From the NCBI RefSeq assembly GCF_000214705.1, contig NC_015573.1, positions 3,293,001 through 3,357,000 on the forward strand: DNA of 64,000 nt, written 5' to 3'. Under the pieces are notes generated by a model, which saw only the letters and a program-made list of their open reading frames with translations, was not told the origin of the DNA and made no database searches. This DNA comes from Desulfofundulus kuznetsovii DSM 6115. Lineage in GTDB: Bacteria > Bacillota > Desulfotomaculia > Desulfotomaculales > Desulfovirgulaceae. Of this stretch, positions 307-58,735 are shown in pieces; position 1 is the stretch's first letter; every line of letters starts with the position of its first letter. Made by a program: the position numbers and the translations under genes.

Positions 307-317
307 ATCTTTCTCCC

Positions 318-402
318 TTGCAACCCAGCCGTCATGGTTACCTCAATGGGTAACTTTAGACCTGTGGCTTTGCGTCCCCGGCTTTTGCCGGGTTTGCCCA
401 CC
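318..402 (-). ncRNA. Cyclic-di-GMP-I (GEMM) riboswitch aptamer
   Basis: On the minus strand this contains the GEMM-I signature: the block ACGCAAAGCCA, then GGTCTAAAG, a tetraloop-like hairpin TTACCC/GGTAACC, and the downstream block GACGGCTGGGTTGC. The GC-rich hairpin CCCGGC/GCCGGG precedes the core. The family binds c-di-GMP and usually controls motility, attachment or c-di-GMP metabolism genes. The controlled gene lies toward position 1 and is not identifiable here. The window also encodes a GGDEF/HD-GYP protein at 54738-56768. Confidence 0.85.
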
Positions 403-489
403 GGGATTTGACATTGATTCTACATTATTTTACCTTCGCTTTTATTGAATCATCATAATTCGTCCCTGTCAAGTGAAATTGATGTCGAG

Positions 490-4945: not shown

Positions 4946-5298
4946 TGGTGGAGGCGGGGGGATTCGAACCCACCGTCCGGAAGAACAGCCACAGGAGTTT
5001 CTCCGAGCGCAGGCTGTGTTTTGGCTTTCGCCCCTTTGGCGGCCACAGCCAGCCTCCGCAGGGGCTATCTCGTTTTAATGTCCCGCCGGGCCTCCGAGAA
5101 CCGTCCCGGCGGCTAGCCCGTTAGTTTGACACCCTATCCCGCGTCACGGGCCGAACTTGGGTAGGATGTGGCCGCTAAATTAAGCAGCCAGAGCGTATTC
5201 TTCGTTGGCAGTTATTGTTTTTCCACCGTTTTACGGGCTGATGGAACCCCGGCTCGCTGCTCCTGCCACCGCTTCCCCCGTCGAAACCTTTCGCCCCC
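4946..5298 (-). ncRNA. ssrA: Transfer-messenger RNA (tmRNA)
   Basis: The RNA begins GGGGGCGAAAGG and ends CGCCTCCACCA, whose tips pair to form the tRNA-like acceptor stem. A TPsiC arm (GGTTCGAATCC) precedes the 3' end and the CCA is encoded. The internal tag frame reads ANEEYALAA followed by TAA, a normal proteolysis tag ending in ALAA. The pseudoknot hairpins follow. It rescues stalled ribosomes together with SmpB, whose gene lies directly upstream on the same strand. Length of about 353 nt is normal. Confidence 0.95.
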
Positions 5299-6945: not shown

Positions 6946-7020
6946 AATCTTCATTCACCCTGCTTTTAGGTACTCGTCACACTTATGGAGAAGTGTCCCT
7001 TTTTGAACACGGTATACGTG

Positions 7021-7318
7021 AATGTTCAGCAAAACCGTAACGACGAGGATGCGGCGCTGTCCGGAGCGAACGACTTGCGAAGCGCCGGTAACAGCACCCG
7101 GTGAAGCGAGGCCGCCGGCTCGGCTCTCGAGGACGCAAGATTGACTAAGCGTAAGAAAAGCTTGAAACACATTAGTTAACAGCTTACAAAGAAGTACAAT
7201 TAGTCACGGGCAATCCGCAGAGAGCCAGAGCCGGCCCGAAGCGAACCGCGGTGCTGTCGGCGCGAAGCACTGGAGTGAGCGAGGACAGCGTCGCATCCAA
7301 CCGGATTCGCTGAACATT
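7021..7318. repeat. Fold-back repeat family A, copy A1
   Basis: The 252-bp core (7047-7298) is bounded by GGATGCGGCGCTGTCC and its near-perfect complement. Outer arms AATGTTCAGC (7021-7030) and GCTGAACATT (7309-7318) extend the pairing. Inner pairs include GCGCCG..ACAGCACC with GGTGCTGTCGGCGC and GCCGGCTC.GGCTCTC with GAGAGCCAGAGCCGGC. The whole element is thus one long imperfect hairpin. Copy A4 at 47446 is nearly identical. I found no transposase and no clear target duplication. Confidence 0.85.
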
Positions 7319-7404
7319 TATAAGATATTTTACCAAAAATTTGCCACATCGCAAGTAGCGTCGGGCCGGCGCTGAATAAGAACGGGTGACGTTTCGAGGG
7401 AACC

Positions 7405-10982: not shown

Positions 10983-11017
10983 CATTGCGCCCGTAATCGT
11001 TCTGCCATCGCCCTAAA

Positions 11018-11270
11018 GGCACGGCGTTGTCTAGAGCGAACGATTTTGCGAAGCGCCGGTAACAGCACCCGGTGAAGCGAGGCTGCCGGCTCGGCTCTCG
11101 AGGACGCATGATCAGCTAACCGAAAAAGAAAGTTTGATACACATTGGTTCAAAGCCTACAACGAAGCGCAACTAATTACGGGCAATCCGCAGAGAGCCAG
11201 AGCCGGCCCGAAGCAAGCCGCGGTGCGCATCTTACGCGGAGCATATGAGTGAGCGGGACAACGCCGTGCC
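11018..11270. repeat. Fold-back repeat family A, copy A2
   Basis: The element is bounded by GGCACGGCGTTGTC and its exact complement GACAACGCCGTGCC. Interior blocks (GCGCCGGTAACAGCACCCGG, CGGCTCGGCTCTCGAGGACG, GGGCAATCCGCAGAGAGCCA) match copy A1. The terminal stem differs from A1 in both arms. It lies between the CsoR-family gene and the selenoprotein gene. Confidence 0.85.
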
Positions 11271-11358
11271 TGACGTCGCGCTTTAACTAAGTCAACTGTA
11301 CATTAACTGAATATTATGGGTCATTGAATAATCACATAAGAATAGGAGTGTGGTTTTT

Positions 11359-26443: not shown

Positions 26444-26508
26444 AATTATCACCACTCGTTGCCCGGCTCAATTTGCCGAATACGTAAGTGTTCAGTTAAC
26501 CCGCTTAA

Positions 26509-26760
26509 GGCACGGCGTTGTCCCGCTCACTCATATGCTCCGCGCCGACAGCACCACGGTTCGCTTCGGGCCGGCTCTGGCTCTCTGCGGATTGCCCGGC
26601 ACTAATAATTCTTCGTTGTCACATCTTAACTTAATATGTTTTCGGTGTCTTCTTCCGAACAGTTAATCATGCGTCCTCGAGAGCCGAGCCGGCGGCCTCG
26701 CTTCACCGGGTGCTGTTACCGGCGCTCCGCAAAATCGTTCGCTCTGGACAACGCCGTGCC
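26509..26760. repeat. Fold-back repeat family A, copy A3 (inverted)
   Basis: A 252-bp element bounded by GGCACGGCGTTGTCC and its exact complement. It is inverted relative to A1, A2 and A4: CGAGAGCCGAGCCGGCGGCC is the complement of the A1 left interior. Weaker outer arms (AAGTGTTCAG near 26486 and CGAACATTTA near 26789) extend the palindrome. It shares its tip type with A2. Confidence 0.85.
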
Positions 26761-26829
26761 ATTGTAGTAAACAGAGCGGTTTTACCGAACATTTACCGGA
26801 ATACAAAAGGCTCCCCGGCGTTGTCCCGC

Positions 26830-27891: not shown

Positions 27892-27932
27892 AATGAACCC
27901 CTCCTTATTATCCTAAAAATATTTACCTGCCC

Positions 27933-28214
27933 GCCGTTTGCACGCGCTCGCTCCGTTCGCCTCGCAGGCCAAAACTAGCGCTCGACCTCGGGCTCCGGCG
28001 GGGTTCCCGGCCAATTTGGAAGTTGGAAGTCAGATGTCAGAGGTTGGAACTGCTGTCGGAATTCGCTGCGCGAATTCCTTCCTCTTTCCGACTTCCAACT
28101 TCCGACCTCCAACCTCCATTCCCGGCATCCATGCCCTCAGCCCCGCCTCCGCCCTCGGTCTCGCTAAGTTTGGCATCTGCTCGGCTCAATGTCGCTCGCT
28201 TCGTGCAAAACGGC
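27933..28214. repeat. Fold-back repeat family B, copy B1 (with loop insertion)
   Basis: Tips are GCCGTTTGCACG and CGTGCAAAACGGC. Inner pair CCAAAACTAGCGC / GCTAAGTTTGGC follows. Unlike the 204-bp copies, B1 carries an extra palindromic block in its apex (about 28018-28120, GGAAGTTGGAAGTC / GACTTCCAACTTCC), so a second hairpin seems inserted in the loop. Confidence 0.8.
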
Positions 28215-28270
28215 GCCATTTTCATCCTTTGTTGGTGGAGCTGAATGTTTCATGAACAGGTGTCTTATCT

Positions 28271-44077: not shown

Positions 44078-44117
44078 CTATCTCACCCCGCCACTATATA
44101 CTGTCGCATAACTACCC

Positions 44118-44373
44118 GGGGCGGCGGTCGTCCCCCGTCGCTCCGTGCTACGGGCCGGACGAAACATCGGCTTGCCTCGGAGCGAACCTGGCAGCGCTGC
44201 ATATGCGCCGAAAATCTTTTTTTGTCATGGATAGTTATAGCATAAAGCAGCTTAATCATTCTATATGATACTGTCATCAGCGCGATTCGCGCTGCCGGTT
44301 CGCTAACCTCGGCAGCGCCGTGTTTCGTATCCGGCCCTCCGCAATGTCGCTACTTAAGGGACGACCGCCGCCC
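44118..44373. repeat. Fold-back repeat family C, copy C2
   Basis: Tips GGGCGGCGGTCGTCCC and GGGACGACCGCCGCCC are perfect complements. Inner arms AGCGAACCTGGCAGCGC and GCGCTGCCGGTTCGCT pair with one bulge. The loop region near 44215-44275 is AT-rich. The element is 255-256 bp, close to family A in size but unrelated in tip sequence. Confidence 0.8.
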
Positions 44374-44454
44374 ATTTAGTTTCCAGTTTTGTGACAGTAT
44401 CCATTAAAGACTAAACCCACACGCCGTTCGCTCCGCTTGCTTCGCCACCAAGGA

Positions 44455-47218: not shown

Positions 47219-47445
47219 GCCCACCTTCACACCCACCTGCCTTATCTTTCCTGTACACACGTATTATACTACAACAACGCCGGGGTAATTACAACAGTTG
47301 CCGGACAAATGAACCGGAAGGGAGCCAGCCCGGAAAAAACAATAAACCGCGGTTCCGGGGTATCTGGAATCGCGGCAGGGAACGGGGTGAGGAAGTGTAC
47401 TGGTCCCAATTTGTAAGTAAATATTTAGTAAAACCGTTATTACGA

Positions 47446-47697
47446 GGATGCGGCGCTGTCCGGAGCGAACGACTTGCGAAGCGCCGGTAACAGCACCCGG
47501 TGAAGCGAGGCCGCCGGCTCGGCTCTCGAGGACGCAAGATTGACTAAGCGTGAGAAAAGTTTGAAACACATTAGTTAACAGCTTACAACGAAGTGCAATT
47601 AGTCACGGGCAATCCGCAGAGAGCCAGAGCCGGCCCGAAGCGAACCGCGGTGCTGTCGGCGCGAAGCACTGGAGTGAGCGAGGACAGCGCCGCATCC
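47446..47697. repeat. Fold-back repeat family A, copy A4
   Basis: A 252-bp core with perfect 16-base tips GGATGCGGCGCTGTCC and GGACAGCGCCGCATCC. It differs from A1 at only a handful of positions. The outer right arm GCTGAACATTTAC (47708-47720) partly pairs with the left flank at 47415-47427. It lies between the M23 and S41 genes. Confidence 0.88.
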
Positions 47698-47722
47698 AAC
47701 CGGGTTCGCTGAACATTTACAG

Positions 47723-58278: not shown

Positions 58279-58500
58279 TCGACCTCCCCTCGACCGGACA
58301 TCCATCAAGCGCCACCGACAGGTGGTGAAAGCGGCCGCCCATCACTCGCCGCAACCGGAGTTCCCGGTGGTACCCCTGCCGCCGCCTGCTTTTCAGTTTC
58401 CCGTACAGGCACCCGGAACCAGTGAGTGCCAGGGCAAAACGGCGGGCAGAAGCTATTATTCAACCCGCTTCCCACCTGAGTTATCCTCACTTTCCAACTA

Positions 58501-58709
58501 CCCTGTTTTGGCTCCCGCTCGCTCCAGTGAACCTCGCGGGCCAAACTAGTGCCTCGGCTCAAAGCTTCGGCAGGCTTCCCGGCAAATTCGGCATCCTGCC
58601 TCAGTTGCCGGCCTCGGGCATCCATGCCCTCGGGTCTGCCTTCGCTTTTCGCTCGCCAAGTTTGGCTGACCGCTCGGCTCAAGTCGCTCGCTACCGAGCC
58701 AGAGCAGGG
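58501..58709. repeat. Fold-back repeat family B, copy B4
   Basis: A 209-bp divergent member. Tips CCCTGTTTTGGCTC and GAGCCAGAGCAGGG pair except for a four-base internal loop. The interior shares GGGCCAAACTAG, GGCATCCATGCCCTCGG and CAAGTTTGGC with B1-B3. It splits tolC from the MacB-like genes. Confidence 0.75.
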
Positions 58710-58735
58710 TTCAAAAACCGGGGATCTTCAGCTTC

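Follow-up and report, generated by a model that had tools for sequence, protein, structure and literature searches.

The window analysed here, a stretch of 64,000 nucleotides from the genome of Desulfofundulus kuznetsovii DSM 6115, contains a c-di-GMP-I riboswitch (316-408, minus strand), a tmRNA gene (4946-5298, minus strand) and several copies of a palindromic element that we call Family A. A preliminary description had placed four palindromes of 252, 253, 252 and 252 bp in the window, beginning at 7047, 11018, 26509 and 47446, each folding back along its whole length, and both statements hold for all four. When the window is searched by BLAST with the copy at 7047 (copy 1), the other copies are 98%, 85% and 83% identical to it, and the copy at 26509 is inverted relative to copy 1. 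The element was thought to end with the 252 bp, but these form only its inner part: flank alignment reveals enclosing inverted repeats, GTAAATATTCAGTAAAACCGTTATGACGA to the left and AACCGGGTTCACTGAATATTTAC to the right of the palindrome, and most of the 58 complete elements collected from six genomes of the genus measure 304 to 317 bp. Its tips are of the GTAAATATTCAGTRAAMCCG / GTAAATATTCAGT type. The tip pattern has six matches in the window, against 0.01 expected from shuffles, and the outer tips lie at 7018-7037/7302-7321, 26484-26503/26777-26796 and 47417-47436/47701-47720; recognisable tips are gone from the copy at 11018-11270. Elements of Family A, and one of a second family (Family B) discussed below, are located as follows.

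7018..7321, plus strand: complete Family A element of 304 bp, with tips at 7018-7037 and 7302-7321 and a structured core at about 7043-7303; covariance-model score 168.5 bits; empty site in genomes G004 and G005
11013..11276, plus strand: old Family A core with degenerate tips; covariance-model score 128.7 bits
15574..15598, plus strand: fragment of a Family A core (left arm), 96% identical over 25 bp
26484..26796, minus strand: complete Family A element of 313 bp, GGCACGG subtype, with tips; 160.7 bits; insertion also present in species G003
44097..44401, minus strand: Family B element with a homologous core at 44113-44378 and unrelated tips (GATACTGTCGCAWAAC); 133 bits; homology from sequence only
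47417..47720, plus strand: complete Family A element of 304 bp, with tips; 169.7 bits
50505..50550, minus strand: short remnant with both core ends; BLAST-level match, 14.6 bits

The copy at 26484..26796 has an 8-bp duplication at its two sides, GTATTCCG/GTATTCGG; the copy at 7018..7321 has no clear target duplication. The apex motif TGACTAA/TTAGTCA, initially ascribed to every copy, is found in those at 7047 and 47446 and is missing from the other two in the window, the apex being the least conserved part. The count of four copies is correct for the window, but a BLAST search of the whole genome (a single contig of 3,601,386 bp) with copy 1 gives 46 matches, about 35 of them near-complete, and a covariance model gives 61; the genome holds about 40-45 A-type copies. 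The observation as a whole therefore stands in part, with extent, apex motif and copy number corrected. Several Family A copies (L053, L050, L052, L055, L032 and L035) contain an element of about 100 bp with the ends CCCAGCACTCAC...GTGAGTGCTGGG, which may be a nested insertion or a replacement. L010 and L036 carry the inner palindrome in reversed orientation between their outer tips, which would fit separate recombination of core and tips.

Family A is a MITE. Its copies have terminal inverted repeats, and their 8-bp flanks agree at 0.67-0.78 per position over exactly eight positions and at about 0.3 beyond. This duplication is perfect (8/8) in 16 elements and matches at 7/8 in 14, making 30 of 58, compared with 0.33% in the control. 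Sister species provide clean empty sites with a single copy of the duplication: the joined flanks of ten copies from the D. kuznetsovii genome, compared with five sister genomes, mostly match as one unbroken stretch, for example at L021 (in G003 and G005), L024 (G003 and G002) and L010 (G005 and G003), and the copy at 7047 is not present in G004 or G005. There is no transposase gene inside the element. No frame is consistently open across copies, and a coding core was rejected because the longest open frames of the copies are not in the same reading frame.

Eight Family A insertions are common to different species and are therefore older. At some occupied sites other species carry a shorter element (where L010 lies, G002 has one of about 200 bp), which suggests that the core was deleted in place. 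Core-less elements of 52-107 bp are also present in the genome, which means that a copy can persist without the core. Mini-elements of 52-58 bp are almost tips alone (L046:2017-2068, L056:350-407 and L045:1649-1706), and G002 and G066 have comparable tip pairs of 58 bp.

Copies of Families A and C are enriched near the replication origin, with 27 of 43 lying within 0.6 Mb against 14.3 expected (P 7e-5); the origin was placed by GC skew, and its region corresponds to the ends of the contig (G000:C1, 0-0.6 and 3.0-3.6 Mb). Such enrichment is not clear for Family B. According to ORF heuristics, nearly all copies are intergenic and many are located just upstream of a ribosome-binding site, and those between co-directional genes are mildly biased in orientation (21 sense, 10 antisense). 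Plasmids, phages and viral contigs yielded no match.

The reported absence of a transposase extends beyond the window. The IS66 (L073-L075) and IS256 (L076-L079) genes of the host were rejected as parents because their tips differ, as was a 1068-bp tip pair at 2266199-2267266, which consists of two truncated ends without a transposase and encloses what is presumably an aminotransferase-like frame (pabC/ilvE type). No transposase of the partner type described next is detected in the six genomes of the genus (0/6 at E<=1e-40). A full-length parent with the same tips, for which a search had been proposed, does exist, but in other families of the order. There the tips bound elements of 1983, 2658, 2696 and 2754 bp (L080, L086, L085 and L108), and 32 of the 113 genomes searched in the order contain the tip pattern. 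L080 and L108 have perfect 8-bp duplications, CGAAGGCA and TATAGCTC; on the basis of tips and duplication length, these two and also L085 and L086 qualify as autonomous elements. The three annotated elements, L085, L086 and L089, encode an IS66 transposase of about 536 amino acids (PF03050, NF033517; assigned in L089 via 71% identity to the L085 transposase) and an adjacent protein of about 293-326 amino acids that matches PF14236, DruA. They are IS66-family transposons in which a DruA/DUF4338 gene overlaps or adjoins the transposase gene, at these positions:

L085:771-3249
L086:725-3213
L089:84-2550

The DruA protein also weakly matches the Mom DNA-modification family (E 3.5e-4). We found no paper in the open-licence literature that combines DUF4338 and IS66. 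From tip sequence and duplication length, on which the link between MITE and partner is based, we infer that Family A was moved in trans by an IS66-type transposase of this IS66-DruA group. Since no partner was detected in the six genomes, Family A appears to be orphaned in this genus. The partner transposons have the tips and lack the core, none being detected by covariance model R1 (see below) in the IS66-DruA elements tested, which excludes that the palindromes are merely old IS ends.

The core is about 265 nt long and recurs in several genera. As modelled, it forms a long imperfect hairpin that is interrupted by tandem G.A internal loops and ends in a variable, AT-rich apex. Conservation peaks in two inner arms and is lowest in the apex, unpaired core positions are also conserved between families, and related cores with quite different outer stems are found in other families of the order. 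A single exact 29-base core pattern, sought in 85,000 species genomes in a scan that is not exhaustive for such cores, matches 39 stretches, in Desulfofundulus, Desulfallas, Desulfoscipio, Desulfotomaculum, Pelotomaculum and Desulfovirgula and in two Firmicutes MAGs. A relaxed search with the Rfam 15 covariance models gave nothing at E<=1 for the core.

Covariation was assessed in a MAFFT alignment of 23 sequences that was not fitted to the structure; another alignment, A3, was fitted to the model and serves descriptive use only. The consensus proposes 59 pairs, with 95.8% of cells paired. Double changes occur in 26 of the 59 pairs, compared with 11.9 in shuffles and 3-10 in slid controls; kinship inflates such counts, and the slid controls retain it. 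The alignment shows that compensatory changes preserve the predicted core pairs from one family or subfamily to another. The covariation check suggested at the outset thus finds an excess of compensatory changes across genera with one strand preferred, and both observations support the early impression that the elements hold more than a simple MITE needs.

In 55 of 58 elements the plus strand gives the more stable fold, by a mean of 9.7 kcal/mol, since 2x2 internal loops that are GA/GA on this strand (90 cases) are TC/TC on the other. G-U cells outnumber A-C cells by 62:18 (31:14 by pairs), and covariance-model scores for the opposite strand are far lower, for example 37 versus 272 bits. These signals are what folding of one strand, most simply as RNA, would produce, and the folded form is probably RNA. 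G-T is tolerated in single-stranded DNA too, so the signals fit RNA or single-stranded DNA.

Model R1 was built from C-type cores, leaving out B elements and elements of the A type, to which the four window copies belong. It recovers all four window copies and a further match at 44113-44378, and 61 places genome-wide, where E-values of covariance models come from a short calibration. Fifteen of the 61 belong to Family B, which has the tips GATACTGTCGCAAAACC...GTTATGCGACAGTATC. Family B elements, with tips of the form GATACTGTCGCA, are flanked by a 5-bp duplication, with an identity of 0.67-0.73 at five positions. A sequence-only profile HMM finds 15 of 15 Family B copies on the same strand (E 1e-20 to 1e-12), compared with E 1.5 for the best reversed control. 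This match, together with the differing tips, implies that the cores of Families A and B are homologous and their ends are not; different transposons appear to carry one and the same module of folded nucleic acid. The minus strand of the window has further large hairpins, at 58494-58715 and 27924-28222, with GCGAGCGACWTTGAGCCGAGC ... GGAGCGAGCG as their base module; they match the model weakly (43 and 14 bits) and are possibly a third related family. Three other weak model matches, L316, L318 and L325, are not counted as homologues, their sequence-only support being weak. L318, in G068, resembles the two hairpins.

Between the eight shared insertions, substitutions amount to 2.2% in stems and 3.1% in flanks, the apex does not mutate faster than elsewhere, and there are no compensatory changes. 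Among 26 scored changes in stems, pairing is preserved in 7 and lost in 19; the test comprises 27 stem substitutions, 16 of them from one decayed copy (L142). The ratio of G-U to A-C is 7:11 after insertion versus 62:18 between families (nominal Fisher p 0.003, with cells that are not independent). Pair loss after insertion thus proceeds at about the neutral rate. It is therefore while an element spreads or becomes established that the fold is probably required, rather than for regulation at each locus, and selection seems to be exerted during propagation and not on individual loci.

Could the palindrome instead be a by-product at the DNA level, as in a plain fold-back MITE whose arms are homogenised by gene conversion or template switching, with no strand-specific fold? 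The inverted cores of L010 and L036 and the in-place core deletions are evidence that palindrome-driven rearrangement of DNA takes place, and the decay of pairs after insertion is also consistent with it. However, conversion between arms should erase GA/GA mismatches, and GA/GA loops persist; it should also treat G-U and A-C alike, contrary to the 62:18 ratio. Unpaired core positions, too, are conserved between families. We consider this explanation rather unlikely. An unlikely role, too, is that of a single-stranded DNA hairpin in mobilisation, in which an exposed strand folds and either joins the ends or serves as the transposition substrate. The plus strand is also the better one with DNA parameters (57 of 58), tandem GA pairs are stable in DNA, and the fold would bring both tips side by side. 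Yet double-stranded cutting is indicated by the tips, by the duplications of 8 bp (A) and 5 bp (B) and by the IS66 DDE transposase; the core is absent from the partner transposons, and copies of Families A and C have no replication-strand bias (25:18 leading/lagging), on which ground transposition through single-stranded DNA was rejected.

The same ratio, the inverted tips, the exact 8-bp duplications, the precise empty sites and the DDE transposase of the partner speak against the earlier proposal that the hairpin serves as substrate for a single-strand transposase (IS200/IS605-type); of that interpretation, the extra structure, the covariation and the parent are retained. It is very unlikely that the core is a host-beneficial regulatory RNA, each copy being retained as a cis-regulator of its neighbour. 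Strong covariation and the intergenic placement of nearly all copies, many just before a ribosome-binding site, are suggestive of this function, but presence and absence differ between sister species at each tested site, shared copies gain pair-breaking changes like neutral DNA, and cores are deleted in place.

On balance, we lean towards a MITE superfamily with a mobile structured module, probably RNA, that is common to unrelated transposon ends. Under this explanation, Family A copies would have been mobilised in trans by the IS66-type transposase of an autonomous IS66-DruA-like element, which persists in related families and was not detected in the six genomes of the genus. The core RNA would be made by read-through from adjoining genes. 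Its fold would probably matter while the element spreads or becomes established; it might, for instance, reduce the harm done by fresh insertions in intergenic mRNA, or assist mobilisation in cis. The module would then be a selfish one, allied to different DNA transposons by a logic comparable to that of IStrons, and a role at the RNA level, in establishment or in mobilisation in cis, seems to us likelier than that of a per-locus regulator. More tentatively, the core might represent an undescribed class of structured RNA of about 265 nt, selfish, borne by two or more unrelated DNA-transposon chassis and aiding establishment or mobilisation of its carrier at the RNA level, seen only in the order around Desulfofundulus, Desulfallas, Desulfoscipio and Pelotomaculum.

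Prokaryotic MITEs with folding transcripts include Correia/NEMIS, ERIC and the Coxiella QMITE (PMC10969869). Like these, Family A is small, non-autonomous, intergenic and multicopy, with inverted tips, a target duplication and a stable predicted transcript fold; unlike them, its core exhibits one-strand compensatory change across genera and is common to unrelated tips. ERIC and NEMIS also have tips and duplication lengths different from those of Family A. The partner resembles the IS66 family in its transposase (PF03050, NF033517), its GTAA start and its 8-bp duplications, but carries a DruA/DUF4338 gene and has GTAAATATTCAGT tips, whereas classical IS66 tips are GTAAGCG; Family A and the partner have only about 20 bp of tip in common. 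REPIN/RAYT and IS200/IS605 systems are likewise high-copy palindromes with strand-specific hairpins. Their lack of inverted tips and duplication, and their subterminal hairpins, are not features of Families A and B, which have inverted tips and 8-bp or 5-bp duplications and, for A, a DDE-type partner. IStrons combine a group I intron with an IS (PMC4227781). In Firmicutes they join one structured RNA type to different transposon families, as Families A and B would; the Family A element matches no group I intron in Rfam, contains no transposase and shows no evidence of splicing.

Transcripts of MITEs that fold are usually viewed as by-products of inverted repeats, whereas here the fold of one strand would be selected in the element lineage, and the same core is found on elements that differ in tips and duplication length. 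Together with IStrons, there would then be two cases in which several DNA transposons are allied with a structured nucleic-acid module. The partner connects the anti-phage protein DruA with IS66 transposition, and the question of why small mobile elements retain large folded interiors becomes testable.
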